Source of the DNA: Ectothiorhodospira sp. BSL-9 | Lineage (GTDB): Bacteria; Pseudomonadota; Gammaproteobacteria; Ectothiorhodospirales; Ectothiorhodospiraceae | Direction of reading: 5' to 3' | Length of the DNA: 64,000 nt | NCBI RefSeq assembly: GCF_001632845.1 | Contig: NZ_CP011994.1 | Span: 3,048,001-3,112,000, forward strand | Position numbers and translations under genes: made by a program | In this document: positions 4,095-40,639 of the stretch, piece by piece | How the letters are laid out: the number at the start of each line of letters is the position of its first letter | Numbering within the stretch: the first letter of the stretch is position 1 | Notes under the pieces: generated by a model | Told to the model about the DNA's origin: nothing | What the model saw: only the letters and a program-made list of their open reading frames with translations | Database searches by the model: none

Positions 4095-5663
4095 TTAGAG
4101 GGTCTCTATGTCAAACGCCACGATCTGCCGCTGCTCGCTGGAGAACTCCACACCAATGAGGTGGATCGGCTTGCCGCTGGCCCGGTACTTGTCGGCATAG
4201 CCCCTGGCCTTGATCTGCTCCAGCGCCCTGCCCTCGGGAAGCTGCTCCACCACCTTGAACTCGAACAGGTAGATGTGGCCACCGAAGTCCACCGTCATGT
4301 CCACCTTGCCATGGTGGCTTGAGTCTTCCACCGTGATCTGGAGCCCCAGGGCGGCAAAGTGGCTGTAGAACACGCTGGCATAGTGCCCTTCGTACCGGGC
4401 AATCGGGTTGTTGCGATACCAGTCATGGGGCAGGCCGGCGTACAGGGCCTTGAGGTGAGCCTCCAAGCCCGCCAGATCGTGTCGCTGCAGAATGTCCATC
4501 AGGCTCAGCTGGTGGGTCTGGGCCTCGCTGTGGCCGATGCCCAGCACCGGAAGCAGCAGGTCGTTGAGGCTGCTCTCCACCTCCAGGTTGGGGAACCCCA
4601 GCGTGTAGAGCCGGTAACCCAGCATGGGCTCCTGCATCTCCTTGATGGTGATATAGCCGGTTTGGAACAGCAGACCTTCGGTGGTGATGTCATCCACATC
4701 GAAACGCCCGAGCAGCTGGGCCCTGGCCTGGAGCCGATCCAGCTGGGGGGTGAAGATGCCGCGCTGCTTGAGCAGATCAATGAGGAAGGTGGGCGTGGCG
4801 CTCTCGAACCAGTACGGGCCGAACTCGCGCTTCTGGAGCAGCAGCAGCACATCGAAGGGATTGTAGACCGATGTGACCTCGGAGCCGCCCCAGCGGTAGC
4901 CGTTGTACCAGGTGCGTATCGCCTCGCGGTCCAGGCCGGGCAGCTCCGGAGCAAATACCGTGTCGATATCCTCATCGGCATAGCCGCAGATCGTGCTGAA
5001 GGGCGCATCCAGGGTAATGTCGTTGAGGTTGTTCAGCCCCGAGAACAGACTGACCTTGCTGAATTTAGACACCCCGGTGAGCAGCGCCAGGTGCAGGTGG
5101 GGGTCGGCATCCTTGAGAACGCTGTAGAGGTTCTTCAGCCCCTCGCGCAGTTCCCGGGCACGCTCCGGTTCCAGGATGTTGTCCAGGATGGGCTTGTCAT
5201 ACTCGTCAATGAGAACAACGACACCCTGGCCGTAGTGAGCGTGAGCCTGGCGAATGAGCGATGAAAACTCGGCGGAGATCAGCTTGGCAGGGGGATGGGG
5301 CAGCCCGAGTTTTTCACGCTGCGTGTTCAGTTGATGCCAGATGTGGTCATCCAGTTCCTGACGGGTCTTGTGGACGCCATCGGCAAAGCTCAGGCGAATC
5401 ACCGGGTGAGTGTGCTGCCAGTCCCAGCGGTCATGAATGTACAGACCCTCGAAGAGTGACTGACGGCCCTCGAACAGGCAGCGCAGGGTGTCCAGCAACA
5501 GGCTCTTGCCGAATCGCCGGGGCCGGGAGAGAAAGTAGTACTTGTTCTGGTGAACCAGGCGCTCAATGATCGGCGTCTTGTCCACATAGTAGTAGCCCCC
5601 CTCGCGAATCTCGGAGAAGGTTTGAATGCCAATGGGGAGTCTGAGCCGCTGATGGTCAGCCAT
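4095..5663 (-). CDS. AAA-ATPase-like/PD-(D/E)XK nuclease-family protein, paralogue 1
   Basis: A 522-residue protein of the common AAA-ATPase_like plus PDDEXK_9 architecture. The N-terminus has the family signature GGYYYVDKT near residue 25 and a P-loop variant SRPRRFGKSLLLD near residue 46-58; VVLIDEYDKPIL near 150-165 is the Walker B equivalent. The C-terminal 70 residues carry a nuclease-like core, GKVDMTVDFGGHIYLFEFKV, with the D and ExK residues present. The biological role of this family is not established; it is often multi-copy and variable. The gene is one of two tandem copies (the other at 5938-7506) sharing upstream and downstream sequence, offset by 1843 bases. The start is set by the strongly conserved N-terminal MADHQRLRLPIGIQTF shared by both copies. 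Confidence 0.85.
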   Translation of the reverse strand: MADHQRLRLPIGIQTFSEIREGGYYYVDKTPIIERLVHQNKYYFLSRPRRFGKSLLLDTLRCLFEGRQSLFEGLYIHDRWDWQHTHPVIRLSFADGVHKTRQELDDHIWHQLNTQREKLGLPHPPAKLISAEFSSLIRQAHAHYGQGVVVLIDEYDKPILDNILEPERARELREGLKNLYSVLKDADPHLHLALLTGVSKFSKVSLFSGLNNLNDITLDAPFSTICGYADEDIDTVFAPELPGLDREAIRTWYNGYRWGGSEVTSVYNPFDVLLLLQKREFGPYWFESATPTFLIDLLKQRGIFTPQLDRLQARAQLLGRFDVDDITTEGLLFQTGYITIKEMQEPMLGYRLYTLGFPNLEVESSLNDLLLPVLGIGHSEAQTHQLSLMDILQRHDLAGLEAHLKALYAGLPHDWYRNNPIARYEGHYASVFYSHFAALGLQITVEDSSHHGKVDMTVDFGGHIYLFEFKVVEQLPEGRALEQIKARGYADKYRASGKPIHLIGVEFSSEQRQIVAFDIETL

Positions 5664-14441: not shown

Positions 14442-16553
14442 TCAGGCGCGCTCGTTGTCACCCTCTTCCCGGTCTGCCTTACCCTCTTCGGCCTTTTGCC
14501 TGGCCAGCCGATCCCGAATGGTGGCAATCGCCCCTTCGGTGGAATGGAACACATTGTCTTCGCCCATGAAGTCCACCAGGTGGGTGCGCTTCATCACCAT
14601 CAACACCTGTGGCTTGATGCCGGCAAACACCAGGGTGGTGCCCCGTGCCCGTAGTCGCTGCACCAGGGAGCGGATCACCTCCTCTCCGGAGGCGTCGATC
14701 TCGTTCACGCCCTGGGTGACCACGATCATGTAACGGGCGTGGGGATAACGGGCGGCCTGCTCCAGCACGGCGTCCTCAAAGTATCCGGCATTGGCGAAAT
14801 ACAGTGAGCGGTCGAACCGCAGCAACCCGATCTCCTCGTCAGCCCTGAGGCCGTAGCGACGTGCCTCGCGCAGCGTGCCGTCCTCGTAGCGTGTCAACTC
14901 GGATACGCGCGGCCGCATGGTGCGGTACAGGAACAGGCCTACCGCCAGGGCCACACCAATGAGGATACCCACATCCAGATTCGGCGCCACCGCCAGGGTG
15001 GCCACGAAGGTCACAATGGCCGCAATACCGTCATGCCGGCTGGCCAGCCAGGCATGCTGGATGGCCTTGAAATTGATCAGCCCCACCACCGCCATCACAA
15101 TGATTGCGGCCAGGACCGCCTCAGGCAGGTGATAAAACAACGGCGTGAAGAACAAGAGCACGAGCAGGATGAATACCGCGGTGAACACGGAAGACAGACC
15201 GGTTCGAGCCCCGGCATTGAGGTTCACGGCCGATCGGGAGAAGGATCCGCTCACCGGGTAGCCCTGGCTCACGCTGGCCGACAGGTTGCCCAGCCCCTGG
15301 CCAATCAACTCCTGGTTCGGATTCAGCCGCTGACCGGTTCGTGCCGCCAGGGCACGGGAAATGGCGACGGCCTCAGTAAACCCCACCAGCGCAATGACGA
15401 AGGCAGCGGTAAAAAGGGCCGCCAATGTAGCGGGCGAGAGATCCGGCATGGCGAGGGACGGCAGACCCGCCGGGATACTGCCGATCACCCGCCCTCCCGC
15501 GTCCATGCGAATCTGTGACCCATCCACCTGAGTCACTCGCCAACTGGGGCGGACCTCCTCCCCCTCATCCAGGGCTTGCGCCGCCACGAAGGCGTCCGGC
15601 TGCCCCTCCTCCCCGGGAAGGCGAGCAAAATGCACATCACGCATCTCTTCCCGGTATCGCTTGAGCACCCGTGCCACATGTTCCTGCCGCAGCGAGAGCA
15701 GCTCCATCTTATATCTCAGCGCTGCCGCCTCGGGGGACTCCGCCGCCTCCAGCCGTGCCTTCTGCTCGCGGATCTGCAGTTCCAGATCGGCTTTCTCTTT
15801 CTTGAAATCGCCCCATTTGAGCAGTTGTTCCGCCACGGCCGGGGGCGACACCTGATCCAGGTGGATATCCGCCTTGCGCTCAAAGCCGATCAGCCAGCTG
15901 ATGGCAGTGGTGAGGATCACGGCGGCCAGCACGCCGGGCACCCGGGGAATGAATCGCTTGAGCCCCACCATGATGAGGATGGCCCCCACGCCAAACAACA
16001 GGGTAGGCCAGTGCAGATAGGCCACATCTCCGAGCATGTCCCAAAGGCCCATGAGGAAATGCCCCCCGGTGTCCACCGGGATGCCCAAAAGCTTGTTGAG
16101 TTGCGACAGGCCGATGACCAGGGCCGCTGCATTGGTGAAGCCCACGATCACCGGATGAGAAATGAAGCTCACCAGGGCGCCCATGCGCAGGATACCCATG
16201 GATAACTGAACCACCCCTACCAAAAAGGCCAGCGCCACGGCCAGGGCCACGTATTCGCTGGAACCCGGCGCGGCCAGAGGGATCAATGCCGTGGCCGTGA
16301 GCAGTGAGACCACCGCCACCGGCCCCGTGGCCAGCTGATTGGAAGAGCCCCACAGGGCCGCCACGATCACCGGCAGGAGGGAGGCATACAGGCCATAGAC
16401 CGGCGGCATGCCCGCCAACTGGGCATAGGCCATGGATTGCGGCACCAACACCAGGGCCACGGCAGTGCCTGCCGCCAGATCGCTCTTGAGAATCTCGCGG
16501 CTGGGCTTTTGCCAGCGCAGGAAGGGAAACAACTGGTAGTGAATGGACCTCAT
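14442..16553 (-). CDS. SulP-family anion transporter with STAS domain and a coiled-coil insertion
   Basis: A 703-residue membrane transporter. The N-terminal half carries SulP hallmarks: DLAAGTAVALVLVPQSMAYA (residues ~25-45) and GMPPVYGLYASLLPVIVAAL. The C-terminal ~130 residues form a STAS domain. Substrates of the family include sulfate, bicarbonate and chloride; none can be assigned here. Unusual is an insertion at about residues 225-355 between membrane segments. It starts with a charged, heptad-like helix (FKKEKADLELQIREQKARLE) and a second one (KMELLSLRQEHVARVLKRYR), then a small globular part. Typical SulP proteins of ~500-580 residues lack it. The gene is transcribed towards the antenna terminator. 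Confidence 0.88.
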   Translation of the reverse strand: MRSIHYQLFPFLRWQKPSREILKSDLAAGTAVALVLVPQSMAYAQLAGMPPVYGLYASLLPVIVAALWGSSNQLATGPVAVVSLLTATALIPLAAPGSSEYVALAVALAFLVGVVQLSMGILRMGALVSFISHPVIVGFTNAAALVIGLSQLNKLLGIPVDTGGHFLMGLWDMLGDVAYLHWPTLLFGVGAILIMVGLKRFIPRVPGVLAAVILTTAISWLIGFERKADIHLDQVSPPAVAEQLLKWGDFKKEKADLELQIREQKARLEAAESPEAAALRYKMELLSLRQEHVARVLKRYREEMRDVHFARLPGEEGQPDAFVAAQALDEGEEVRPSWRVTQVDGSQIRMDAGGRVIGSIPAGLPSLAMPDLSPATLAALFTAAFVIALVGFTEAVAISRALAARTGQRLNPNQELIGQGLGNLSASVSQGYPVSGSFSRSAVNLNAGARTGLSSVFTAVFILLVLLFFTPLFYHLPEAVLAAIIVMAVVGLINFKAIQHAWLASRHDGIAAIVTFVATLAVAPNLDVGILIGVALAVGLFLYRTMRPRVSELTRYEDGTLREARRYGLRADEEIGLLRFDRSLYFANAGYFEDAVLEQAARYPHARYMIVVTQGVNEIDASGEEVIRSLVQRLRARGTTLVFAGIKPQVLMVMKRTHLVDFMGEDNVFHSTEGAIATIRDRLARQKAEEGKADREEGDNERA

Positions 16554-28177: not shown

Positions 28178-28405
28178 CAAGGGAGCACCACGAGCACCAG
28201 CGCAAAGGGGTGAGTTGAGGCGGTATTGGGGGTGATCGTCGACTGTCATGTGTCCTGTGACCGTGGTCGGTCCTTGCGGTTCATCGAAATGGATGGGTGA
28301 GCGGGAGGCTTGGCGCTCACTCTGTTATATGGTTATGCTCCTTAAGGCATAATGAAAACATGGGCTGAAACCCCTCCTCTTTTTCACCATAACGGAGAAA
28401 AAACC

Positions 28406-29371
28406 ATGAGTGCCAGTGCCCGCATACCCCATCTTGTCCTGACCGGGCTATTGCTTTCCCCCCTGGCCATGGCCCAGGCGGACGAGGACCGCCCCATTGA
28501 GCACATCCTTGAGCCCCGGGCCATCACGGATCAGATCCATTATTTTTTCGGCTCCCTGGAAAACCGCACCGAGACCAATCTGGGCATGAACAACAACGTG
28601 GGGTTCGTGATCACTGACAAGGGCGTGGTGCTCATCGACAGTGGGCCCAGTCACCATGTGGCGCAGCGTATCGAGCAGGCGGTGGCCGAGGTGACCGACC
28701 AGCCCATCACCCATGTGATCAACCTGGGCAGCCAGGATCACCGCTGGCTGGGCAATGAGTATTTCCTCTCCCAGGGCGCCGAGATCCTGGCCCTTGAGCG
28801 CACTGCCGCCACCCAGGCGGAGTTTGCCCGACAGCATCTGGATCGTCTCACGGATACTCTGGGGGACGCGGCCATGGCGGGCACCGAGCCGCGCCCCGCG
28901 CCCTCACCCATTGCGGGTGATCGCCACGACTTCGAGCTGGGCGGGGTGCGCTTCGAGATGGTCCATGCCGGCGATGCCCACTTCCCTGGGGACATCCTCC
29001 TGCACCTGCCCGATCACCACGTGGTCTTCACCGGGGATGTGGTCTACACCGAGCGCATGCTGGGTATTCATCCCTGGAGCAACCCGGTGGAACAACTCAA
29101 GGCCTTCGAGACGATGGCGTCCTGGGCGCCGGAGGTGGTCGTTCCCGGCCATGGGGAGGCCACCGACCTGGCCACGGCACAGCGGGATACCGGTGATTAC
29201 CTGGCCACCCTGGTACGCGAGGTGCGGGAGGGCCTGGAGAACTGGGAAACCCTGGATGAGGTGGTGGCCCGTCTGGCGGACTTGCCGGAATTCCAGCACC
29301 TGCGCCATTACGATGACTGGCACCGGATGAACGTCAATCGCACCTATCTGTTCATGGAGGCCAATTTCTAA
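28406..29371 (+). CDS. Metallo-beta-lactamase-fold secreted protein with altered zinc site
   Basis: A 321-residue protein with a signal peptide (MSASARIPHLVLTGLLLSPL, cleavage near AMAQA). The fold is recognisable from NNVGFVITDKGVVLIDSGPS, then VVFTGDVVYTERMLGIHPW and EVVVPGHGEATD. At residues 106-117, where zinc-dependent members have NTHxHxDHxGGN, this protein reads NLGSQDHRWLGN, so two of the usual metal-binding histidines are lost. The later histidine (VVPGHGEA) and aspartate (TGDVV) remain. CGGAG upstream of 28406 fixes the start. It lies immediately downstream of, and convergent with, the arx regulator genes. Catalysis is doubtful; a binding role is possible. Confidence 0.8.
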   Translation: MSASARIPHLVLTGLLLSPLAMAQADEDRPIEHILEPRAITDQIHYFFGSLENRTETNLGMNNNVGFVITDKGVVLIDSGPSHHVAQRIEQAVAEVTDQPITHVINLGSQDHRWLGNEYFLSQGAEILALERTAATQAEFARQHLDRLTDTLGDAAMAGTEPRPAPSPIAGDRHDFELGGVRFEMVHAGDAHFPGDILLHLPDHHVVFTGDVVYTERMLGIHPWSNPVEQLKAFETMASWAPEVVVPGHGEATDLATAQRDTGDYLATLVREVREGLENWETLDEVVARLADLPEFQHLRHYDDWHRMNVNRTYLFMEANF

Positions 29372-29382
29372 AGGCCCACCCC

Positions 29383-30705
29383 CTAAAGCCCCAGGCGTTT
29401 CATGCGCTCCCACAGATTCTTGCGGCTGATGCCCAGGGATTCGGCCGTGCGGGCCACATGGCCGCCGTTGGCCTCCAGTGCGCCGACGATGTAGGCACGT
29501 TCACAGGATTGCAGGTGCTCGCTCAAGGTCCATGTCGCGCCTGCAGTCCCCTCCTCGCCCTCGGTGATCAGGGGTTCGTCGAACAACGCCTCCCGGGTCA
29601 GGGTCTCGCCGGGGCTGAGGATGCAGGCCCGCTCGATGGCGTGCTTGAGTTCGCGGATGTTGCCGGGCCAGTCATGGCGCATCAGGGCATGTTCCGTCTC
29701 CGGCGGCAATTGCTTGCGCTCGCCGGTGGCACGCACGAAGGCCTCCAGGAACTGCCGCACCAGCCAGGGGATGTCGTCCCGGCGCTCCCGCAGGGGCGGC
29801 AGCCGCAAGTGAATCACGTGGATGCGGTAATACAGGTCCTCCCGGAAACGTCCCTCGTCCACCAGGGCACGCAGGTCCCGGTGGGTGGCGCAGATCAGGC
29901 GCAGGTTGACCGAAATCGGCTGCTCGCCCCCCACGCGCACCACCTGACGCTCCTGGATGGCCCTGAGTAATTTCACCTGCATCACCAGGGGCATGTCGCC
30001 CACCTCGTCCAGGAACAGGGTGCCTCCGTCGGCCTGTTCGAACACCCCGGGACGGGCCCGCACGGCGCCGGTAAAGGCGCCCTTCTCATGACCGAACAAC
30101 TCGGCCTCCAGCAGGCTCTCCGTGAGACCGCCACAATTCACCGCGATGAAGGGTCGATCCGAGGAGGCAGGATCCAGGCGATGAATCTCCCGGGCCACCG
30201 CCTCCTTGCCCACCCCGGATTCCCCCGTGATGAGGATGGTGCCGGCCTGGGCGGCCAGGCGGGGCAGGAGCCGGCCGATGCGCCGCATGGTGGGGGATAC
30301 ACCCAGCGCCCCGGCGGCCTCCCCCTCCTTGTCCATGGGACCCACCAGGATGCGCAGCTTGTCGATGAGGGCGTCCAGATCGAAGGGCTTGGTGATGTAA
30401 TCGGTGGCACCGGACTTGAGCACGGTCACGGCCCGATCCACGCTCCCATAGGCGGTGATGAAGAGCCAGGGCGGCAGCGGCACCCCCTGCTCGGCCAGCG
30501 ACAGGAACAGTTCATCACCCTGGCCATCGGGCAGGCGGATATCGCTGATCACCGCCGCGTATTCCTGCTCCACCAGGGCGGACCTGGCCTCCCCGGTCTG
30601 CCGGAACCAGTGACAGCCAAAACCCTCCAGTTCGAAGCGGTCACACAGGGATTCGCCCATGATGGGATCATCCTCGATCAGACACAGCCGGGCTGGCGCA
30701 TTCAT
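29383..30705 (-). CDS. arxR: Sigma-54-dependent response regulator of the arx cluster
   Basis: A 440-residue NtrC/DctD-type activator. The receiver domain (1-120) has EDD at 11-13, phospho-acceptor Asp55 in VISDIRLPD, and the late lysine in ITKPFD. The AAA+ domain (~140-370) has Walker A GESGVGKEAVA, the sigma-54 contact loop GAFTGA and LFLDEVGDMP. A Fis-type helix-turn-helix ends the protein (GHVARTAESLGISRKNLWER). It overlaps the sensor kinase stop/start by four bases. With ArxS and the periplasmic ArxX it matches the described arxXSR regulators of anaerobic arsenite oxidation. The matching sigma-54 promoter and palindromic sites lie at 33067-33194. Confidence 0.85.
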   Translation of the reverse strand: MNAPARLCLIEDDPIMGESLCDRFELEGFGCHWFRQTGEARSALVEQEYAAVISDIRLPDGQGDELFLSLAEQGVPLPPWLFITAYGSVDRAVTVLKSGATDYITKPFDLDALIDKLRILVGPMDKEGEAAGALGVSPTMRRIGRLLPRLAAQAGTILITGESGVGKEAVAREIHRLDPASSDRPFIAVNCGGLTESLLEAELFGHEKGAFTGAVRARPGVFEQADGGTLFLDEVGDMPLVMQVKLLRAIQERQVVRVGGEQPISVNLRLICATHRDLRALVDEGRFREDLYYRIHVIHLRLPPLRERRDDIPWLVRQFLEAFVRATGERKQLPPETEHALMRHDWPGNIRELKHAIERACILSPGETLTREALFDEPLITEGEEGTAGATWTLSEHLQSCERAYIVGALEANGGHVARTAESLGISRKNLWERMKRLGL

Positions 30706-32159
30706 GAAACCTCCTGGGAATCCCGGGTCAGGGGCAGATTGACATGAAAACGGGTGTCACCTGGGGAACTCTCCACATGGATCCCGCCGCCCAGTTGCTG
30801 CACCAGCTGGTAGGTCACCCAAAGACCGAGCCCATGCCCCTGACCCTGCCCGGTGAACGGCTCGAACAGATGGGCCATGCGCTCGGGCTCGATGCCGCGA
30901 CCGCCATTGCCCACGATCAGCGACAACACATCGTTGTGGACGCCCAGATCACAGTGGATCACCCCGCCAGCCTCGCTGGCGTTCAGGGCATTGAGCAACA
31001 GATTCAAGAGTGCCTGGCGCACCTGGGTGGATGGCAGGGGCAGCGTCCCGGTGACGGCATTATTCCAGACGACTGTCACCTGTTTCTTGTGGGCATCGGG
31101 CTGGATGAGGGTGTGTATGTCGTCAAGATCCTGGGGCGTCAGATCATGCCCCTCCAGCCGTGACTCCACCAGCAGGGCCCCCACCGTATCCTTGATCTGC
31201 AGCAGCCCCCGCTCCAGTAGCGAGACAGTCCGACCGGCAATGCCCTCCGGCGGGCCATGGCGCTTGTAGGTGCTGATGGCGTTGAGCATGCCCCCCAGTG
31301 GGTTGTTGATTTCATGGGCGATCCCCGAGGTCAGACGGCCGATGGCTGCGAGTCGCTCCGTGGCCACCATGCTCTGCTCCAGGGCCTGCTTCTGGCGCAA
31401 CTCCGCGAGCATGCGCCTGAGCTGGGCCCCGGCCTGACCGATCTCGTCCCGGGACTCATACAAGCGACACTCCTTCTCTTCCGGGATGCGCGAGCCCACA
31501 CGCCCCATGCAGTCCGCCAGTTGCAGCAGGGGCTCGGCCATGCGTCGGCCCCAGTACCAGGACAGGGGCAACAGGATCACCAGCACCAACAGGGTCACCC
31601 AGCCGGCCCGCGAGACAATGCCCAGAAACCGGGGCACGAACAACGACTTGGGGTACTCCATGATCAGGGTCCCCAGATGAACGCCGTCCAGCTGGATGGG
31701 GGCCACCAGATAGAAGTGCCCGGTCTCGGCGATCTCCACGGCGCGGGGCTGGTCCAGGGACAGTGTGGCCAGCCGCGCCTGCAGCCCCGCGTACTGAGGG
31801 CCCAGCGAGTCCAGCCGGGTGAGGATGGGCTGACGCATGGGCTGTGTGGAGACGTACACCCGGTCCCGCTCATCCAGGACCATCAGCAATTCCGCCCCCA
31901 GGGCCGTCTCTTCGCCGGTGTGAAACGGCGTGTTGATGATCTCATAGGTCCGCCACACATCGTCGTGCACCATGGGCGTCACCAGGGTCTCCGCCAGCAC
32001 CCGCCCCAGGCTGGCTGCGTTGTCGAACAGGTCATGGCGTAGTTGCTCATATTCCCGCGCCATGATGGCCCCGGTGACAGTGAACGAGGTGATCAGCACC
32101 AGCACCGTGGCCCGCAGCGGGATCTTGTAGCGAAAGCTCAGGTCGCGCAGTAGCAGCAT
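30702..32159 (-). CDS. arxS: Sensor histidine kinase of the arx cluster
   Basis: A 485-residue membrane kinase. A first helix at about 15-35, a periplasmic sensor region (~36-180, including ETLVTPMVHDDVWRTYEI) and a second helix at ~188-210 precede a HAMP-like linker. The kinase core has the phospho-accepting histidine in GIAHEINNPLGGML, and the ATP-binding domain has NLLLNALNASEAGG, GNGGRGI and GQGHGLGLW. It resembles the DctB/NtrB group that phosphorylates NtrC-type regulators. It lies between arxX and arxR with a two-base gap on one side and a four-base overlap on the other. The sensor domain probably reads arsenite through ArxX. Confidence 0.82.
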   Translation of the reverse strand: MLLLRDLSFRYKIPLRATVLVLITSFTVTGAIMAREYEQLRHDLFDNAASLGRVLAETLVTPMVHDDVWRTYEIINTPFHTGEETALGAELLMVLDERDRVYVSTQPMRQPILTRLDSLGPQYAGLQARLATLSLDQPRAVEIAETGHFYLVAPIQLDGVHLGTLIMEYPKSLFVPRFLGIVSRAGWVTLLVLVILLPLSWYWGRRMAEPLLQLADCMGRVGSRIPEEKECRLYESRDEIGQAGAQLRRMLAELRQKQALEQSMVATERLAAIGRLTSGIAHEINNPLGGMLNAISTYKRHGPPEGIAGRTVSLLERGLLQIKDTVGALLVESRLEGHDLTPQDLDDIHTLIQPDAHKKQVTVVWNNAVTGTLPLPSTQVRQALLNLLLNALNASEAGGVIHCDLGVHNDVLSLIVGNGGRGIEPERMAHLFEPFTGQGQGHGLGLWVTYQLVQQLGGGIHVESSPGDTRFHVNLPLTRDSQEVS

Positions 32160-32161
32160 GG

Positions 32162-33040
32162 TCAGATCCGCCCCAGAGCCTGAGCCATGCGCCGGATCTC
32201 GTCGAACAGTTCGGGCTCTCCGGGGATGAAGCCATCCAGATTCAGGCGTGACATCAGCCGCTCCGTCTCCGGGTCCCGGATTCTGTCCACCAGGGCCGAT
32301 CGCAGGGCCTGAAAATCCCTCTCTGGCAGATCCTTGCGGGTCACGAAAGGGGGAAATCCGAACGGGGGGGAGCGCTCCACCACCCGGGTGCGGTCCGTGA
32401 TCCGGGGAGAGAACTGCGCCAGGGTTTCCCAGACATAGCTATCCACCGCGCCACCCTGCGCCAGCCCCACTGCCGTGGCCTCGATCACCTTGCGATGGGA
32501 CCAGGTGAAAAAACTGCGCCGAAAGAAATGCTCGACCCCCTGTCCCTCCCGCATCAACCGGTACTGCACGAACAGATGACCCGAATTGGACAAGGGGTCG
32601 GAGAAGGCGAAGACCTGCCCCTCCAGATCCATCAACGATCGGGTGCGGGTATCGCTGGCGGGCACCAGCAGATAGGAGCGATACCGGGGTTGTCCCCGGT
32701 ACAGCGGCACGGCCAGCAGCCGCAGGCGATCCTCATGGAGAACATAGGGGAAACCACACAACCACGCTGCGTCGAGGCGACCCTCCAGCAAGAGTTCGGT
32801 TACCTCCCGGTAACTGGCGCGCTGCACAAAGCGCACGGGGCGACCCAGGCGTCGCGACAGGTCCTCCCGCCAACGCTGCAGAAAGGCCGCCTGATCATCC
32901 AGGAACACCGGCGTCAGGCCAATGCGCAGGGTGTCCGCCTCATCCTCCGCCAGGACGCTTCCCCACGGGGTCATACCCACGGCCAGGACGCCGGCGGCGG
33001 CCTTCAGGAAACGTCTTCGTGGTGTGAATTCCCGGGTCAT
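32162..33040 (-). CDS. arxX: Periplasmic arsenite-sensing binding protein (PhnD/AioX-like)
   Basis: A 292-residue protein of the phosphate/phosphonate-binding (PhnD) superfamily. The N-terminus has a twin-arginine signal (RRRFLKAAAGVLAVG), indicating export in folded form. The mature part starts LRIGLTPVFLDDQAAFLQRW, typical of PhnD-like sensors, with LEGRLDAAWLCGFPYVLHED in the ligand cleft region. Its only cysteine in the whole chain is Cys95 in that stretch; in the related AioX a single cysteine is needed to sense arsenite, so this is a likely As(III) ligand. It is the first gene of the arxXSR operon and divergent from arxB2ABCD. Confidence 0.82.
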   Translation of the reverse strand: MTREFTPRRRFLKAAAGVLAVGMTPWGSVLAEDEADTLRIGLTPVFLDDQAAFLQRWREDLSRRLGRPVRFVQRASYREVTELLLEGRLDAAWLCGFPYVLHEDRLRLLAVPLYRGQPRYRSYLLVPASDTRTRSLMDLEGQVFAFSDPLSNSGHLFVQYRLMREGQGVEHFFRRSFFTWSHRKVIEATAVGLAQGGAVDSYVWETLAQFSPRITDRTRVVERSPPFGFPPFVTRKDLPERDFQALRSALVDRIRDPETERLMSRLNLDGFIPGEPELFDEIRRMAQALGRI

Positions 33041-33066
33041 TGTGTTCGAGTCTAACCGTGTCTGTC

Positions 33067-33125
33067 GTTACCAAACGGTAACACTCCACCCCTTAACCAC
33101 CGTCAAGCCGTTACCCATGGGTAAC
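33067..33125 (+). promoter_or_regulatory. Two 16-bp palindromes, candidate ArxR binding sites
   Basis: GTTACC-N4-GGTAAC occurs at 33067-33082 and again at 33110-33125, both perfect, 43 bases centre to centre (about four helix turns). They lie ~105 and ~62 bases upstream of the -24/-12 promoter, a standard place for enhancer sites of sigma-54 activators. On the minus strand a possible sigma-70 promoter for arxXSR (TTGACG 33106-33101, TGTTAC 33083-33078, 17-base spacer) overlaps the first palindrome, allowing autoregulation. Confidence 0.65.
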
Positions 33126-33179
33126 CCCTGGCCTGCCCCTCCTGAAGACAAACCGCTTTCCAGGGCCATTGGGTGGTAT

Positions 33180-33194
33180 TGGCACACTCAATGC
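33180..33194 (+). promoter_or_regulatory. Sigma-54 (-24/-12) promoter of the arx operon
   Basis: TGGCACACTCAATGC matches the consensus TGGCAC-N5-TTGC with GG and GC exactly ten bases apart and one mismatch in the -12 element. Transcription should begin near 33206, about 87 bases before the arxB2 start. It fits the adjacent sigma-54 activator gene. Confidence 0.75.
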
Positions 33195-33292
33195 AGGGTT
33201 TTTGATAAAACACAATATAACCATAAACACCCCCGAGGGCACAGCCCCGGGTCGGTCGAGGGAAGCGACCGGCGCAGCACGGAGGAGGAGAT

Positions 33293-34495
33293 GTGACAGA
33301 CGCGACGACGCGGGCAGCGGCAGCCTATCAGCCCCTGGCCCCACATGCATCCCTGTGGGTGGCGCGCTCAGCCTGCCTGCCCGGACGGTTTCCACGCATC
33401 GCCTGCGATGCCTGTATCGGAGCCTGTCCCACAGGTGCCCTGAGCTGGTCAGCGGAGACATCCGGTGCCCACCTCCAACTGAGCGGCGATGCCTGCGTGC
33501 AATGCGGACGCTGCGTGGCTGCCTGTCCCACTCATGCCCTCACCCTACCGGGACTCCAGGTCGTCCCACCAGACCCGGCCCGCGCCGAGCTGCACCTGGA
33601 CTGCCTGCGCGTCCCACAAGCGGAGTCCCCCGAGGGCGCGGTGCGCGTACCCTGCCTCGGCGGCCTGAAAACCAGTCAATGGCTGGCCCTGGCCGCCACC
33701 GGTGTCGCCGTGAAGTACCTGGACCGTGGCTGGTGTTCCCAGTGCAGCGCCGGGGGCCAAAAGGCCGACCTGCCTGCCCTGGATGCTGCCCTGACACAGC
33801 TTGCCGGGGCGGCCCCGGAGCTGCCCGGCATCCAGCGCATCGAGGCCCCGCTTCCGCCTCGTCTCAGACAGGGCGAGACACCGGACCCGGGGCTTACCCG
33901 CACGGTCAACCGGCGCGCGTTTTTTCGTCAACTGGCGGGAGAGGTGGCCAGCGCCTCGCAAACTGTTCAGGGGATTGAGACCACGTCCCCATCCCTGCCC
34001 AGGCCCGATGGCACACGGCGCATACGGCCCAGCGAACGCCTGGCGCAATTGACCCTGCTCACGCAAATGGCCCGGGATCAGGGCAGCCCATCACTTCAAC
34101 TGAATCTGGCGCACGCCCATATCGACCCGCAGCGTTGCCATAATCACGGCATTTGTGCCCGCGCCTGCCCCACCGCCGCCCTCAGCACCTACAGGGATGC
34201 CGATGAGCGGGGCATCCGATTCGATCCCGTGACCTGCATCCAGTGCGGTGAGTGTCAGGCCCTGTGCCCGGAGCAGGCCATCGAGATCCGCCCGGCCTGG
34301 CCCGAAGACGCCAACCCGGCCGCCCCCCGGACCCTGACCCGCCATGGCACGCGACGCTGCGGTGAATGCGGTCAGGATTTCCCCTGCAACGAGCATGAGC
34401 TATCCGACGAGGCCCTGCCCCTGTGCCCGCAATGCCAGAAGGGCCGTGGCCTTTTCGAAACGGAGCTGCATCGCCTGTTCGGCATGACCCCTTGA
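33293..34495 (+). CDS. arxB2: ArxB2, polyferredoxin of the arsenite oxidase operon
   Basis: A 400-residue iron-sulfur protein starting at GTG with a perfect GGAGGAGGAG site. Four cysteine clusters of the 4Fe-4S ferredoxin type are visible: CDACIGACPTGAL and CVQCGRCVAACPTHAL near residues 38-85, then CHNHGICARACPTAAL and CIQCGECQALCPEQAI near 280-330. A NapF-like organisation is suggested. A C-terminal zinc-ribbon pattern (RRCGECGQDF...LCPQCQ) follows. No signal peptide is seen, so it should be cytoplasmic, perhaps aiding cofactor assembly or electron transfer for ArxA. It is the first gene of the operon, directly behind the sigma-54 promoter, as in described arxB2ABCD clusters. Confidence 0.82.
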   Translation: MTDATTRAAAAYQPLAPHASLWVARSACLPGRFPRIACDACIGACPTGALSWSAETSGAHLQLSGDACVQCGRCVAACPTHALTLPGLQVVPPDPARAELHLDCLRVPQAESPEGAVRVPCLGGLKTSQWLALAATGVAVKYLDRGWCSQCSAGGQKADLPALDAALTQLAGAAPELPGIQRIEAPLPPRLRQGETPDPGLTRTVNRRAFFRQLAGEVASASQTVQGIETTSPSLPRPDGTRRIRPSERLAQLTLLTQMARDQGSPSLQLNLAHAHIDPQRCHNHGICARACPTAALSTYRDADERGIRFDPVTCIQCGECQALCPEQAIEIRPAWPEDANPAAPRTLTRHGTRRCGECGQDFPCNEHELSDEALPLCPQCQKGRGLFETELHRLFGMTP

Positions 34496-34533
34496 TCAGC
34501 CCATCAGCACACCACCCAGGAGAGCCACACACC

Positions 34534-37050
34534 ATGAATCTACTCAAATCCCTCGTCACCCGGCGCCGTTTCCTGCAAGCGGGTGGCGCCGCTGGCGTGG
34601 CCGGTGTCGGCGCCGCCAAGTTCGCCGGTTTCACCGCCCTGTCCACCCGCCCGCAGCCGGCAACGGCCCAGACCCGGGGGGAAACCCGCATCACCAAGAA
34701 CATCTGCGCCCAGTGCCCGGCCCGCTGCGGCATCGACGTGTACACCACCGATGGCAAGGTCACCGCCATCTACGGCGACAAGGGCAACCCCATCGCCAAT
34801 GGCAAGCTGTGCCCCAAGGGCCACCTGGGCGCCTATTTCCTGTATGACCCGGACCGCTTCACCGGCCCCATGAAACGCACCAACCCCAATAAGGGGCGGG
34901 ACGAAGACCCGGAATTCGTGCCCATCTCCTGGGACGAGGCCCTGGACATGGTGGCCGAGCGCATGAACAGCCTGCGTGAGCGCGGCGAATCCCACCGATT
35001 TGCCCATTTCTACGGGCGCGGCTGGGGTTCCTCGGATGCCGGCCTCTACGGGGACTTTGGCAAACTCTATGGCACACCCAACTCGGCCATCGGCCATGCC
35101 TCCATCTGCGCCGAAGGCTCCAAGCGTGCCAAGCAGGCCACCGACGGCAACAACTCCTACAACGCCTACGACTACAGGAACTGCAATTACATCCTGAACT
35201 TCGGCGCCGGCTTCCTGGAGGCCTTTCGACCCTACAACTACCTGATGCAGATGTGGGGCCACATGCGCACCAAGAGTCCGCGCACCCAGGTGACCAGCAT
35301 CGACGTGCGCATGAATCCCACCATGGCGGCCTCGGACCGCTATCTGATGATCAAGCCGGCCACTGACGGGGCCCTGGCCCTGGCCATTGCCCATGTCATC
35401 CTCACCGAAGACCTGTGGGACAAGGAGTTTGTGGGTGACTTTGCCGAGTCGGGCCAGCGCTTCCAGGCGGGACAGCGCATTGAATCCGGCAGCTTCGAGG
35501 AGAAATGGGTGCACGGTCTGGAAACCTGGTGGAACGAGGAACTGCTCGAGCGCACCCCCGAGTGGGCCGCCAGCATCACCGGCATCCCGGCCCGGGACAT
35601 CGTTCGCGTGGCCCGCGAGTTCGGCACCACCCGCCCCGCCATTGCCCTCATGGAACGCGGCCCCACAGCCCACTTCAACGGCACCTACAACGGCATGGCC
35701 ATCCACGCCCTCAACGCCCTGGTGGGCAGCCTGTTTGCCGAGGGCGGCCTGTTCTACCAGATGGGCCCCTCCTACGGCGCCCTGCCGGTGAACGCGGATG
35801 ATTTCATGGACGATCACGCCCGACAGATGCAGGAAAGGATCCGTGACGGCGAGATCGTGCGTATCGACAAGGCGGGTACCGAGGCCTGGCCCATGACCAG
35901 TCACATGATGCAGGAGGTGGCAGGCCATCATCTAGCGGGAGATCCCTACAAGCTCGACACCGCCATGTTCTTCTACACCAACCCCATCTGGACGGCGCCC
36001 GACCCCAAACTCTGGGAAGAGGCCCTGAAGGATGTGTTCATTATCGACACCTCCCCGTTCCCCGGCGAAACGGCCATGTATGCCGATCTCATCCTGCCGG
36101 AGCACACCTATCTGGAGCGCCTGCAGGACTCTCCCACCTATCCCTTTGAAGGCTGGCCCATGGCCGCCCTGCGGGTGCCGGCGGTGGACCCCATCCACGA
36201 CACCAGGCACTTCGGTGACATGCTCATCGAGATCGGCAAGCGCATCAACGGGCCCATGGGTGACTATTACCGGGAACTGGACAGCGTGGAGAACCTGCTG
36301 CGCCATCGCGCCGCCGGTTTTGCCGACGACCCGGGCGACAACGGCGTGAACGACTTCGAAAGCTGGAAGGAGAAGGGCGTCTGGTACAAGAAGCCCTACC
36401 ACTGGCGCCAGTTCAGAGGCGAGTTCTATGCCTGGGATGGCGAGGACTACACCCAGCGGATGAGCCCCGAGGAGGTCAAGGAGAAGCTCATCAAGACCCC
36501 CTCGGGCAAATTCGAGTTCGTCTCTGGCTTCCTTGAGAATCACGCCGCCTATATCCATCGGGAGATGGGCATCCCCGAGGAACGGGTGAGCCTGATCCAG
36601 TGGGTGGAGGCCCGTCACACCGGGGAAGGCAAGCTGCACTTCGTCACCCCCAAGGTGCCCCTGCACGCCGAGGGCCGCAGCGCCAACATCCCCCAGGCCA
36701 TCTCCTACATCCAGCCCATGGCCGGCGGCCGGGGCACGGTTTTCCTGGAGATTCACCCCCAGACGGCCCGGGACCACGGCATCCGTAACGGCGACCGGGT
36801 GCGCCTCACTGCCCAGGTGCGAGGCGAGTCCCAGAGCATCCTGGCCGTGGCGCGTTTCGTGGCCGGCAATCGCCCCGACACCCTGGTGCTGCCCATGGAA
36901 TACGGCCACTGGGCCCAGGGTCGCTGGGCCACGGGCCAGGGCCGTGACCGGTTACCGGGGCATTCCGGGGAAATCACCGAGAACCAGTCCGATCCGATCT
37001 CGGGCCTGGCCTGCTACTACACCGCCACCGTCAACATCGAGCGCGCCTGA
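34534..37050 (+). CDS. arxA: ArxA, molybdopterin arsenite oxidase catalytic subunit
   Basis: An 838-residue periplasmic oxidoreductase of the DMSO-reductase superfamily. A twin-arginine signal (TRRRFLQAGGAAG) is followed by a 4Fe-4S motif C58-x2-C61-x3-C65-x27-C93. The molybdenum ligand is Cys192 in GHASICAEGSKR. At 161-165 the chain reads GRGWG, the motif I recall as diagnostic for ArxA, where arsenate reductases (ArrA) have a GRY-type sequence. The reaction is As(III) to As(V), with electrons passed through ArxB and ArxC to the quinone pool. The ATG at 34534 follows AGGAGA; a longer frame begins inside arxB2 and is a shadow. The alternative, a tetrathionate- or arsenate-type enzyme, is less likely given arxB2, arxD and arxXSR beside it. 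Confidence 0.88.
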   Translation: MNLLKSLVTRRRFLQAGGAAGVAGVGAAKFAGFTALSTRPQPATAQTRGETRITKNICAQCPARCGIDVYTTDGKVTAIYGDKGNPIANGKLCPKGHLGAYFLYDPDRFTGPMKRTNPNKGRDEDPEFVPISWDEALDMVAERMNSLRERGESHRFAHFYGRGWGSSDAGLYGDFGKLYGTPNSAIGHASICAEGSKRAKQATDGNNSYNAYDYRNCNYILNFGAGFLEAFRPYNYLMQMWGHMRTKSPRTQVTSIDVRMNPTMAASDRYLMIKPATDGALALAIAHVILTEDLWDKEFVGDFAESGQRFQAGQRIESGSFEEKWVHGLETWWNEELLERTPEWAASITGIPARDIVRVAREFGTTRPAIALMERGPTAHFNGTYNGMAIHALNALVGSLFAEGGLFYQMGPSYGALPVNADDFMDDHARQMQERIRDGEIVRIDKAGTEAWPMTSHMMQEVAGHHLAGDPYKLDTAMFFYTNPIWTAPDPKLWEEALKDVFIIDTSPFPGETAMYADLILPEHTYLERLQDSPTYPFEGWPMAALRVPAVDPIHDTRHFGDMLIEIGKRINGPMGDYYRELDSVENLLRHRAAGFADDPGDNGVNDFESWKEKGVWYKKPYHWRQFRGEFYAWDGEDYTQRMSPEEVKEKLIKTPSGKFEFVSGFLENHAAYIHREMGIPEERVSLIQWVEARHTGEGKLHFVTPKVPLHAEGRSANIPQAISYIQPMAGGRGTVFLEIHPQTARDHGIRNGDRVRLTAQVRGESQSILAVARFVAGNRPDTLVLPMEYGHWAQGRWATGQGRDRLPGHSGEITENQSDPISGLACYYTATVNIERA

Positions 37051-37083: not shown

Positions 37084-37836
37084 ATGCCTAAATGGGGAAT
37101 GGTCATCGACCTGGACAAATGCACGGGCTGTCAGGCCTGCACCACCGCCTGTGCCATGGAAAACAACACTCTGCCGGGGGAATCCTGGCAGGACGTCCTG
37201 TACTACCACGCAGGGGAGTACCCCAGCGCCCAACTCAAATGGCTGCCCAGGCCCTGTATGCACTGTGAAAGCCCCTCCTGCGTACACGTGTGCCCCACCC
37301 GCGCCACCTACAAGGACATGGACGCCGGCGGCATCGTATTCGTGGACTGGAGCAAGTGCATCGGCTGCAAATACTGCATGATCGCCTGTCCCTATGGGGT
37401 GCGCTTCTACACCGACGAGCGCCCCCTGCTCGAACCCGACCTGAAACAGGTCTTCCCGGGGCAGGACGGCCAGCAGTGGAGCCCGCCCTACCAGAACCCC
37501 AACGTGGACTGGCGCCGCGGCATCGGCATCCAGCCCAAGGGGGTGGTCTCCAAGTGCACCTTCTGCCATCACAAGGTCAGCCAGGCCCCCGAGGGCGTGG
37601 CGGACCTGGACGAGGACGACCCGCAGCTGACCGAGTACGTGCCCGCCTGCGTGCGCACCTGCCCGCCCAAGGCGCGCTTTTTTGGCGATCTGGACAATCC
37701 TGAATCCCACGTCAACAAGCTCATCGGCAACAAGAAAGGTGTACGCATGCTGGATCACACCGGCAACCGCCCGCAGGTGTACTACCTGGGTTCGGGGGCC
37801 GGTATTCCCGCCTTCCGCCCGGCGCCGAAATCCTGA
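37084..37836 (+). CDS. arxB: ArxB, four-cluster iron-sulfur subunit
   Basis: A 250-residue electron-transfer subunit of the DmsB/NrfC type. Cysteine motifs appear in the standard order: CTGCQACTTAC near residue 13, CMHCESPSCVHVCPT near 59, CIGCKYCMIACPYG near 97, then CTFCHH and CVRTCPPKAR in the C-terminal part, enough for four 4Fe-4S clusters. It has no signal peptide of its own and is probably exported with ArxA as a complex. It starts 33 bases after arxA with GGAG in the gap, and hands electrons to the membrane subunit ArxC. Confidence 0.9.
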   Translation: MPKWGMVIDLDKCTGCQACTTACAMENNTLPGESWQDVLYYHAGEYPSAQLKWLPRPCMHCESPSCVHVCPTRATYKDMDAGGIVFVDWSKCIGCKYCMIACPYGVRFYTDERPLLEPDLKQVFPGQDGQQWSPPYQNPNVDWRRGIGIQPKGVVSKCTFCHHKVSQAPEGVADLDEDDPQLTEYVPACVRTCPPKARFFGDLDNPESHVNKLIGNKKGVRMLDHTGNRPQVYYLGSGAGIPAFRPAPKS

Positions 37837-37857: not shown

Positions 37858-39051
37858 ATGAGTACAACCGCTGAGCACATGGCCCCGGGTCAGGATCCCC
37901 GGGGCACCCCCGTCGCCATGCTGACGGTGGGAATCCTCTTCACCCTGGTGGGCCTGTTCATCGCCTTCCGCCTGTTCACCGAGGGCCACGCCGCCTTCAA
38001 TGTCTACAGTGACGGTGTGGTCTGGGGCCTGCCCGTCTCCGCCTATGTCTTCTTCGTGCTCTCATCCACGGGACTGACCTTCGTGGCCTCCATGGCCATG
38101 ATCTTTGGTATCAAGTCCTTTTATCCCATCGCCAAACGCTGCGTCTGGCTGGCCATTGCCACCCTGATTGCCGGCTTCATCTCCCTGGGGCTGGAGATCG
38201 GCAACCCGGTGCGCATGATCTGGGCCATCCCCCTGAACATGCAGATACGCTCCCCCATGTTCTGGATGGGGGCCTTCTACTTCCTCTACCTGGCCCTGCT
38301 GGTGTGGAAGTTCACCTTCCTGCACCGTGGCGACTGGAACAGCAGGAGCAGCCGCAACGTGGGCATCGCCTCGGTGGTCACGGTGATCATCGCCCACGCC
38401 ACCCTGGGGCTGGTGTTCGGCATGATGGCCATGCGCCCCTTCTGGTATGGCTCCTTCGTGCCGGTGTACTTCCTGGCCACCGCGGCCCTGTCGGGGCTGG
38501 CCTTTGCCACCCTGTTCACCTACTTCTCCTACGGCATCCGCACTCAGCGTATGAGCACCTCCATGCGCACGCTCATGGAAGGACACCTGCCCAAGGCCCT
38601 GCTCACGGTGCTGGGCATCGTGCTGGTCTTCAACATCAGCCGCACCATCACCGGTCTGTGGAGCAACAACCCGGAGATCAGCCTGGTGATGCAGCATCAG
38701 GTGGGTACGTTGCTGTTCCACGTGGAATTCTGGCTGGGGATGGTCCTGCCCTTCGTGCTGCTGCTGATCCCTGCCCTGAGAGCCCTTCCGGTGGTTCAGA
38801 TGGCCAGCGCGGCACTGATCCTGATGGCAGTGTTCATCGGGCGTTATGAGTACGTGGTGGGCGGTCAGTTGGTGCCACTGTGGAAAGGAACCTGGTCACA
38901 GACACTGAGCACCTACAGCCCCTCCATGGCCGAATGGGGCCTGGTGGTACTGGGCGCCGGCATCGGTCTGTTGATCTACGCCTTCGGCTCCTGGAAATTC
39001 AACCTGCGGGCCTTCCCGACGAACGGCGATCATCGCGATAGTCGGCTCTGA
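37858..39051 (+). CDS. arxC: ArxC, NrfD-type membrane anchor and quinone-reducing subunit
   Basis: A 397-residue polytopic membrane protein with about ten hydrophobic segments, of the NrfD/PsrC family. Typical stretches are YSDGVVWGLPVSAYVFFVLS (residues ~45-65), SLGLEIGNPVRMIWAIPLNM and RSPMFWMGAFYFLYLALLVW. Family members hold no haem and exchange electrons between the iron-sulfur subunit and the quinone pool. It starts 21 bases after arxB behind AGAGGA. In this pathway it should deliver arsenite electrons to quinone, and so to photosynthetic electron flow. Confidence 0.88.
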   Translation: MSTTAEHMAPGQDPRGTPVAMLTVGILFTLVGLFIAFRLFTEGHAAFNVYSDGVVWGLPVSAYVFFVLSSTGLTFVASMAMIFGIKSFYPIAKRCVWLAIATLIAGFISLGLEIGNPVRMIWAIPLNMQIRSPMFWMGAFYFLYLALLVWKFTFLHRGDWNSRSSRNVGIASVVTVIIAHATLGLVFGMMAMRPFWYGSFVPVYFLATAALSGLAFATLFTYFSYGIRTQRMSTSMRTLMEGHLPKALLTVLGIVLVFNISRTITGLWSNNPEISLVMQHQVGTLLFHVEFWLGMVLPFVLLLIPALRALPVVQMASAALILMAVFIGRYEYVVGGQLVPLWKGTWSQTLSTYSPSMAEWGLVVLGAGIGLLIYAFGSWKFNLRAFPTNGDHRDSRL

Positions 39052-39161
39052 AAAGGGCCTGCAAGGGCTGACAGACCTCCCGGGGGCATGGGTCGCCAAG
39101 GGCAGCATCACGGATGCGCCTTCACGGCCCTCGCCCCCGGGGCGACGTTGAGGACATGACC

Positions 39162-40082
39162 ATGCTGACCACATCCCCTTTACCCACCACGCCCACCAAG
39201 GATCTGCAACCCTGGGCGGAGACGCTGCTGTGCCTCGGACAGGCCTTTTTGCCACCACGGGACCCCTCGTTTCAACACGCCATCATCCATGACCTGCCCC
39301 GTGACCTTCAGGATCTCAACGACACACTGGGCTTCACCACCAACGCCGCCCTGGCCCAATGGTCGGAGCATCTGGGGCATTGGGCAGACGATGAACAGGC
39401 CCTGCTCAAGTGCTACAGCCGGCTGTTCCTCTCGCCCCCCACCCCGGCCTCGCTCAACGCCGGACGCCACCTGGACGGCCAGCTCATGGGTCCCAGCGCC
39501 GTGGAGATGGAGCAGGTCTACCAGGCCCACGCGCTGGCCCGGGATCCCAACCTTCACCAGTTGCCGGATCATCTGGCCCTGCAGCTGCAATTCGTGGCCT
39601 TCCTCCTGGCCGAGGCCCCGACGGCGGCTGATCCCGAGACCTATCTTCACGACGCCCGGGGCTTTACCAGCCGGTATCTGCGCGGCTGGCTGAAGAATCT
39701 GGTCAGCCAGTGCCAGACGGGCGAGGCCGCCTACCACCTACCCCCCGTCTACAGCCAGCTTGCCGACTTCACCCATCAGGCCATCCTGCGGCTGCTGGAA
39801 CAACTGCCCCAGCGGGAAGCCGCCCCCCAACCCACGGATCAGGCACCCCCACCGGTTCGGGACAATCCCTTCACGGGGAAAGAGGCCGACAAGAACGCCG
39901 GGGACACCCACCCGATCACCTGTTCCCGTTGTAGTGAACCCTTCATGGCCGAGGGTGAGCTGGCTGGCATCATCGCCGCCTTGCACGCCAATGATGTGAG
40001 CGCCGCCCACCTGTGCATCTGTCCCGATTGCCGGGCCGGGGCCATGGGCATGACGGCCATGAAACCCCCGGAGGTTCGATGA
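39162..40082 (+). CDS. arxD: ArxD, TorD-family chaperone with C-terminal zinc-ribbon extension
   Basis: A 306-residue cytoplasmic chaperone that should bind the ArxA twin-arginine signal and guard cofactor insertion. The TorD-like all-helical domain covers about residues 10-215 (ALLKCYSRLFLSPPTPAS, later YLRGWLKNLVSQCQ). After a proline-rich linker comes an extra domain with CSRCSEP and CICPDCRAG, a two-CxxC zinc-ribbon pattern not present in ordinary TorD proteins (~200 residues). GAGG at 39150-39153 favours the ATG at 39162 over 39156. Its stop overlaps the mobB start, so the two are coupled. Confidence 0.8.
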   Translation: MLTTSPLPTTPTKDLQPWAETLLCLGQAFLPPRDPSFQHAIIHDLPRDLQDLNDTLGFTTNAALAQWSEHLGHWADDEQALLKCYSRLFLSPPTPASLNAGRHLDGQLMGPSAVEMEQVYQAHALARDPNLHQLPDHLALQLQFVAFLLAEAPTAADPETYLHDARGFTSRYLRGWLKNLVSQCQTGEAAYHLPPVYSQLADFTHQAILRLLEQLPQREAAPQPTDQAPPPVRDNPFTGKEADKNAGDTHPITCSRCSEPFMAEGELAGIIAALHANDVSAAHLCICPDCRAGAMGMTAMKPPEVR

Positions 40083-40639
40083 CCATGAGCACCCTGCCCT
40101 TGCTGGGCTTTGCCGCCTGGAGCGGCACGGGAAAGACCACCCTGCTGGTGCAACTCATCCCCCTGCTCAAAAACCGTGGACTGCGCATCGCCATGATCAA
40201 GCATGCCCATCATGCCTTTGATGTGGACAAGCCGGGCAAGGACAGCTTCGAGCTGCGCAAGGCCGGCGCGGCGCAGATGCTCATCGCTTCCCGTCACCGC
40301 TTTGCCCTGATGGTGGACGAGCAGGAACCCCACGAGCCGGATCTATGGACCCTGGTGGAACACCTGGACCCGGCACGCTCGGACCTGATCCTGGTGGAGG
40401 GTTTCAAGTCGGAGTGCTTTCCCAAGATCGAACTGCATCGACCCTCCCTGGGTCAACCGCTGCTACACCCGGACGACCCGGACATCATCGCCGTGGCCAC
40501 GGATGCGCCCGACTCGCTCAACGCCCACCTGCCGGTCCTGGATTTGAACGACCCGGAGGCCATTGCTCAGTTCATTCTGGAGTGGATACCGGCTCGGGAG
40601 CATCCCTTGCCACAGGCCCAGCAAGTGGGGCGAATCTGA
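40079..40639 (+). CDS. mobB: MobB, molybdenum cofactor guanylation GTP-binding protein
   Basis: A 186-residue P-loop protein. Walker A is WSGTGKTTLLVQLIP near residue 14, followed by AMIKHAHHAFDVDKPGKDSF with the conserved histidines, and a late LILVEGFKSECFPKIE, all typical of MobB. It assists conversion of molybdopterin to the bis-MGD form needed by ArxA. It is the last gene of the arx operon, joined to arxD by an ATGA overlap, so cofactor maturation is co-regulated with the enzyme. It converges on the hybrid kinase gene with only nine bases between stops. Confidence 0.88.
   Translation: MTMSTLPLLGFAAWSGTGKTTLLVQLIPLLKNRGLRIAMIKHAHHAFDVDKPGKDSFELRKAGAAQMLIASRHRFALMVDEQEPHEPDLWTLVEHLDPARSDLILVEGFKSECFPKIELHRPSLGQPLLHPDDPDIIAVATDAPDSLNAHLPVLDLNDPEAIAQFILEWIPAREHPLPQAQQVGRI

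Follow-up and report, generated by a model that had tools for sequence, protein, structure and literature searches.

In Ectothiorhodospira sp. BSL-9 the arsenite oxidase operon arxB2ABCD and the divergent operon arxXSR, which encodes a periplasmic sensor, a histidine kinase and a response regulator, face each other across one intergenic region, and the question that this locus raises is which of the two operons that region controls and through which regulator. In passages of two 2019 papers, control of arx by arxXSR is described as undemonstrated (PMC6549141, PMC6683785). For Alkalilimnicola ehrlichii MLHE-1, excerpts of an earlier study propose an RpoN promoter together with a site for ArxR (PMC5908839); the operon and its proposed control are the same as those considered here. 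We analyzed the 64,000-nucleotide stretch that contains the locus (hereafter the window; 3,048,001-3,112,000 of the single genome contig) together with related loci from other genomes.

The arx locus and its control region

The features of the locus, in window coordinates, are as follows.

29383..30705, minus strand: arxR, response regulator and sigma-54 activator (GAFTGA) with a Fis HTH containing ISRKNLWERM
30702..32159, minus strand: arxS, sensor histidine kinase
32162..33040, minus strand: arxX, periplasmic phosphonate-binding-like (AioX-type) sensor, named from synteny and from passages of PMC5908839
32799..32814, no strand: third exact palindrome, GTTACCTCCCGGTAAC, a possible auxiliary ArxR site inside arxX
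33067..33082, no strand: UAS1, predicted distal ArxR site, GTTACCAAACGGTAAC, an exact GTTACC-N4-GGTAAC also present before arxB2 in relatives
33110..33125, no strand: UAS2, predicted proximal ArxR site, GTTACCCATGGGTAAC, an exact GTTACC-N4-GGTAAC
33180..33194, plus strand: predicted sigma-54 -24/-12 promoter of arxB2ABCD, TGGCACACTCAATGC, whose place downstream of the sites is conserved
33206..33206, plus strand: predicted transcription start, placed by spacing 12 bases past the -12 GC
33293..34495, plus strand: arxB2, Fe-S cluster protein with a GTG start, first gene of the controlled operon
34423..37050, plus strand: arxA, arsenite oxidase large subunit, named from literature and homologs; its true start is probably later
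37084..37836, plus strand: arxB
37858..39051, plus strand: arxC, probable membrane subunit, assigned by position
39114..40082, plus strand: arxD, probable TorD-like chaperone, assigned by position

A mobB gene for molybdopterin guanine dinucleotide synthesis (40013-40639) lies directly 3' of arxD. ArxR contains a receiver domain (Pfam: PF00072), a sigma-54 activation domain (PF00158) with the GAFTGA motif and a Fis HTH (PF02954), the combination that places it among the group I bacterial enhancer-binding proteins (NtrC type). The genome also encodes RpoN (PF04552, E 1.8e-67).

UAS1 and UAS2 lie 43 bp apart, start to start, and the centres of UAS2 and UAS1 are 62.5 and 105.5 bp 5' of position 33180. 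The two palindromes are 183 and 226 nt 5' of arxB2, the latter slightly past the published AioR-type range of 100-200 nt, and all three palindromes of the window, whose G+C content is 62%, fit the AioR-type pattern GTTN10AAC. Compared with TGGCAC-N5-TTGC, TGGCACACTCAATGC has the exact GG/GC spacing of 10 bp and a single mismatch, ATGC instead of TTGC. Matches to TGGCACNNNNNTTGC with at most one mismatch show no excess over chance in the window (4 found, 7.35 expected), and we therefore rejected the -24/-12 motif by itself as evidence; the element, whose match lacks significance in the window when taken on its own, draws its support from positional conservation across loci.

On recheck, the letters, coordinates and distances given in the earlier note on this DNA for two palindromes and a -24/-12 element were all correct. 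Its description of the palindromes as perfect applies to the arms, since the AAAC spacer in the first site breaks the symmetry, and its pair was not the full set, the third exact copy within arxX having been missed. The note had also called arxR the neighbouring gene and a GAFTGA-type activator; the motif is confirmed, but arxR comes third in the divergently transcribed arxXSR operon, 2.4 kb off the sites.

Distribution of the palindromes

Exact GTTACC-N4-GGTAAC occurs three times in the whole genome (3,550,080 bases), each time in the arx locus, and a reversed-pattern control has no exact copy genome-wide. Outside the arx locus the whole genome holds four palindromes with one mismatch, and the control likewise four. 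We therefore rejected the idea that ArxR has a larger regulon in this genome, and the predicted regulon here is the arx locus only.

Our comparison set comprised 81 rows, namely the window and 80 named arxA loci (the best 80 of 144 relatives) from genome contigs, and matches of at least 10 of 12 letters within 400 bp upstream were counted as sites. Forty-three rows have arxXSR, 14 do not, and 24 were set aside, half of them being cut within 400 bp upstream and half unjudgeable for arxXSR. Among the 43 loci with arxXSR, 37 have GTTACC-type sites, five have GTTCGG-type sites and one (L093) has neither; 34 of the 37 have at least two GTTACC-type sites. Sites of either type are found in none of the 14 loci without arxXSR in their flanks (at least 5.5 kb on each side, absence referring to the flanks only), one of which, L087, has a partial ArxR match of 27%, below the cut. 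Eleven of the 12 unjudgeable rows have no site and the other, L030, has a pair. In shuffled upstream sequences at least one site arose in 1.2% and two sites in 0 of 3450. The loci are related, so these counts are not independent. Arx operons such as those of the Halomonas, Nitrincola and Marinospirillum loci are accordingly predicted to lie outside ArxR control.

Within the family of the window, 12 of 47 genomes encode ArxA at E 1e-150 or better. The earlier note had proposed a search for the palindrome upstream of arx in other Ectothiorhodospiraceae; all 11 arxA-bearing family relatives have at least two sites (at least 10/12) before arxB2, and 10 of the 11 retain them under a stricter GTT-N10-AAC filter, at least seven of the 11 being the same genomes as loci in the 80-locus set.

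The sigma-54 element across loci

We scored as strict any sigma-54 element with fixed GG and GC and at least five of the six other consensus letters. In the 150 bp that follow the proximal site such an element is present on the coding strand in 26 of the 37 loci with GTTACC-type sites and on the opposite strand in none; upstream of the sites the corresponding counts are 0/37 and 3/37. Controls gave 5/740 shuffles and none of the 14 loci without nearby arxXSR. With a looser cut (4/6) the downstream counts are 33/37 on the coding strand and 3/37 on the opposite strand, those upstream are 2/37 and 5/37, and the controls are 25/740 shuffles and again 0/14. A strict match is thus missing in 11 of the 37 site-bearing loci, and four of the 37 (L058, L085, L096 and L104) have no match even at the looser cut.

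Spacings cluster, with 43 bp the commonest value and others at 30-34, 41-45, 60, 90-91 and 182. When all values are used, 0 of 2000 random sets are equally regular; with unique values, 76/2000 are for site to site and 3/2000 for site to promoter. The typed spacing list omits the near-copies L088, L100, L101, L104 and L106, and the promoter spacing list omits the near-copies L100, L101 and L106 and the match-less L058, L085, L096 and L104, with L030 added. In view of the unique-value counts and of a best period of 11.3-11.6 bp instead of 10.5, we rejected these spacings as proof of helical phasing.

The operon served by the sites and its regulator

Loci in which arxXSR lies apart from arxB2 bear directly on the choice of target. 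In L060 and L061 (Thioalkalivibrio AKL19 and ALMg11) arxX starts some 7 kb further downstream on the same strand, and the pair is still before arxB2; the distant arxXSR has no site of 10/12 or better in its vicinity. In L079 (Thiocapsa UBA6158) roughly 1 kb separates the sites from arxX, and in L099 the distance is 11.8 kb, to an arxX that has its own weaker pair. Since the sites stay with arxB2 where arxXSR is separated from it, they serve arxB2ABCD, an added effect on arxXSR being compatible with this where the two operons adjoin. The earlier note had suggested a double duty for the palindromes, with ArxR on the first site also repressing arxXSR from a promoter that overlaps it. UAS1 does sit 27 bp before arxX begins, a place at which bound protein could obstruct a promoter, and passages on Rhizobium NT-26 report a predicted AioR site upstream of an RpoD promoter of aioXSR (PMC6011840). 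However, the same passages describe aioXSR of NT-26 as unresponsive to arsenite, a consensus scan of both strands of 32900-33400 yielded no sigma-70-like promoter, and the only arxX promoter candidate found by eye, TTGACG-N17-TGTTAC, agrees with the consensus at 8 of 12 bases, and the A and T typical of a -10 are missing. Moreover, across 33 divergent loci the distance from the distal site to the arxX start takes values between -19 and +195 bp (starts extrapolated from alignments). With this distance unconserved and arxXSR apart in L060, L061, L079 and L099, the overlapping promoter and the self-repression both go unsupported, and we consider a second, repressive role unlikely.

A further alternative is that the sites activate in both directions, the divergent gene being served by a second sigma-54 promoter. 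This has some footing in L060 (6341) and L061 (6342), where a conserved minus-strand sigma-54-like TGGCCCGATGGTTGC faces a gene for an FKBP-type isomerase, and in L104, which has one strict sigma-54 match toward arxX. No such match points toward arxX in the window, though, and the rarity of strict matches on the arxX side, given above, argues in the same direction; we regard a shared enhancer as quite unlikely. The palindromes might instead bind a regulator other than ArxR, such as one that responds to phosphate or redox state, given that ArxR binding is inferred. Against this stand the presence of sites in 42 of the 43 loci with arxXSR and in none of the 14 without it nearby (best 80 of 144 plus the window), the way in which site class tracks the helix of the XSR regulator (see below), and the fact that the closest footprinted relative is AioR, all of which render another regulator highly improbable.

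We conclude that the region is very probably the enhancer and sigma-54 promoter of arxB2ABCD, driven by ArxR. Conservation of both sites and promoter supports the proposal of the earlier note that arx is under sigma-54 control from this region, with a pair of activator sites matching ArxR, and ArxR activation of a predicted sigma-54 arx promoter is well supported by the comparisons. At NtrC-family sigma-54 enhancers, activator dimers bind upstream of a -24/-12 promoter, as proposed here for arx, which differs from such enhancers in general in its site sequence and its arsenite input. In the proposed mechanism, periplasmic ArxX loaded with arsenite would stimulate ArxS, which would phosphorylate ArxR; ArxR dimers would then occupy the two adjacent GTTACC-N4-GGTAAC sites and form an AAA+ ring, and this ring would remodel sigma-54 RNA polymerase poised at 33180-33194, with transcription starting near 33206. 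Arsenite would thereby induce the operon in this strain.

Two site classes and the ArxR recognition helix

The recognition helix of ArxR is presumed to lie where it does in Fis-type HTH domains generally. Among 40 ArxR tails, 34 have SRK[NST] or TRKT, five, all alphaproteobacterial, have [GS]RTT, and one (L040) is cut. GTTACC-type sites accompany 33 of the 34 SRK[NST]/TRKT tails, the exception being L093 with no sites; all five [GS]RTT tails go with GTTCGG-type sites and none with GTTACC-type sites within 400 bp. Helix and site class are thus both readable and in agreement in 38 of 40 ArxR rows.

We added 24 XSR loci in two sets, 16 judged with five of six arm letters palindromic and eight with a cut-off of 10/12; L131 repeats L039, and the AioR of L148 is the same as that of L147. 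Sixteen of these 24 loci have RK-type regulators, of which 12 have GTTAC-type sites; the ArxR-like regulators of L130, L132 and L136 have none, nor does L137, where the contig is cut. The seven RTT-type loci all have GTTCGG-type sites, in L163 a single one of 10/12. The remaining locus, L169, has the helix SRST and a pair of GTTCGG-like matches (10/12 each, spaced by 34 bp) some 1.3 kb beyond the regulator. Four further loci, L140, L143, L144 and L145, were not counted because their helices differ and they gave no arxX hit. Among the XSR loci, L134, L135, L138, L146-L148 and L162-L165 have aioBA operons; therefore site class goes with the regulator and not with the enzyme. L092 and L096, alphaproteobacterial bins with RK-type ArxR, have GTTAC-type sites, and the arx site of alphaproteobacterial L103 is letter-identical to the AioR site GTTCGGATTTCCGAAC, which according to excerpts of PMC5335332 was footprinted in Agrobacterium GW4 and carries the GTTN10AAC motif.

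The correspondence has finer and looser parts. The three TRKT loci (L059, L092 and L168) all have GTTACG, which also makes up 18 of 106 half-sites in SRKN loci. In addition to GTTACC sites, RK-type L082, L097, L100 and L106 each have one GTTCGG-like match (10/12 or better, within 400 bp), and L092, L166 and L167 have GTTCGG-like matches of 10-11/12 elsewhere. When the HTH is left out of the ArxR tree, RTT maps to one change, and the association of helix and site therefore rests on one evolutionary event.

Sites within coding sequences

Sites of at least 11/12 occur inside arxB2 in eight of the 37 loci, whereas synonymous shuffling predicts 0.11 and none of 300 shuffles reached that number. Five of the eight belong to one Aromatoleum/Azoarcus clade, leaving about four independent groups. 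No internal sites of at least 11/12 were found in arxS, arxR, arxA or arxB of the 37 loci, and an internal arxX site is present only in the window. That site falls on the conserved ArxX peptide SYRE[VI], which by itself yields 7-9 of the 12 letters in many relatives: among 44 rows aligned at the peptide, the window has 12/12, L016 has 11/12 and the remaining 42 have at most 9/12. We therefore judge it somewhat more probable than not that the arxX palindrome is a functionless accident of coding. Against an accident stand the dependence of the exact match on the sole GTA valine codon of the gene, the recovery of an exact site in just 37 of 20000 synonymous shuffles of the window arxX, and the recurrence of intragenic sites in the arxB2 genes of other lineages.

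A joint reading of helices and intragenic sites, to which we give an even chance, is that a recognition code spans the arx and aio XSR regulators and that additional intragenic ArxR sites act as auxiliary enhancers. Under the code, SRK[NST] would read GTTACC, TRKT GTTACG and [GS]RTT GTTCGG, whatever the enzyme; several lineages, perhaps including this one, may have evolved ArxR sites in arxB2 and possibly in arxX.

Sites beside other genes

Several further sites and neighboring genes were observed. L024 has two ArxR-like site pairs in one genome, one (3340-3398) between an FKBP-like gene, whose Pfam score is just below the cut-off, and a gene with a metallo-beta-lactamase fold, the other (4612-4671) before arxB2, where the sigma-54 match is CGGCATGTCCCTTGC at 4725. 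A gene with the latter fold lies at 28352-29371 of the window, convergent with arxR, and the L024 relative is 51% identical; as this relative has its own upstream ArxR-like pair, the window gene may be an arx accessory. Relatives of the FKBP gene of L060 and L061 occur in 23 other loci of the 80 (best 80 of 144), mostly about 3 kb past arxA.

L079 has two ArxR-like sites, both imperfect and separated by 32 bp (14702-14749), near the start of a moaA-type gene, a molybdenum cofactor gene, that adjoins arx. L129 (3942-4026) combines XSR genes, GTTAC-type sites and a sigma-54-like match toward a molybdoenzyme that shares only 28% identity with ArxA and may be a different kind of enzyme under XSR control. 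L027 (2522) and L057 (1130), both Ectothiorhodospiraceae bins, have a single 11/12 site in the start of the gene adjoining arxR; the L027 protein has Sel1 repeats, and its L057 counterpart is similar by eye only.

Relation to known systems

The earlier note knew of no earlier description of these sites. None was found for these particular sites among the matches listed in the open-access literature, and the same scope yielded nothing on GTTACC-N4-GGTAAC as an ArxR motif, on the pairing of recognition helix and half-site, or on sites inside arxB2; a GTTACC string in PMC5370401 was ruled out as a prior ArxR motif, being a 16S primer. For the layout as such the statement of the earlier note is too strong, as passages of three papers show, one with the MLHE-1 prediction (PMC5908839) and two with the equivalent AioR arrangement (PMC3834237, PMC5335332). 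The published ArxR site of MLHE-1, gtaacaattcaagc, is non-palindromic, unlike the window sites, and GTAAC within it could be the right half of the GTTACC-N4-GGTAAC motif (PMC5908839). The published MLHE-1 promoter string was found in 0 of the 47 genomes searched.

For AioXSR/AioR, with Agrobacterium GW4 and 5A, Rhizobium NT-26, Herminiimonas and Thiomonas as comparison systems, excerpted descriptions of aioBA control agree with the arx locus in having a periplasmic sensor, a kinase and an NtrC-type regulator, and a palindrome pair upstream of a -24/-12 element that is confined to XSR loci (PMC3834237, PMC5335332, PMC2848651). One excerpt reports palindromes and -24/-12 elements in all 12 aioBA operons with aioXSR and their absence from those without (PMC3834237), which the linkage of arx sites to arxXSR mirrors; another gives a mapped aoxAB start and the promoter TGGCACGCAGTTTGC (PMC2848651). 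In contrast to AioR, ArxR would control the Arx oxidase, and its own operon usually points away from that of the enzyme; the window half-site GTTACC differs from the GTTCGG of alphaproteobacterial AioR, although the beta- and gammaproteobacterial AioR loci L134, L135 and L138 also have GTTACC.

The layout is of a kind already described for the other arsenite oxidase type; its occurrence at arx is well supported and brings a clearer ArxR motif and a testable specificity code. Exact conserved sites are now offered for testing, with control of arx separated from self-repression of arxXSR, and the helix-to-site code could aid in finding arsenic regulons or in building arsenite sensors.
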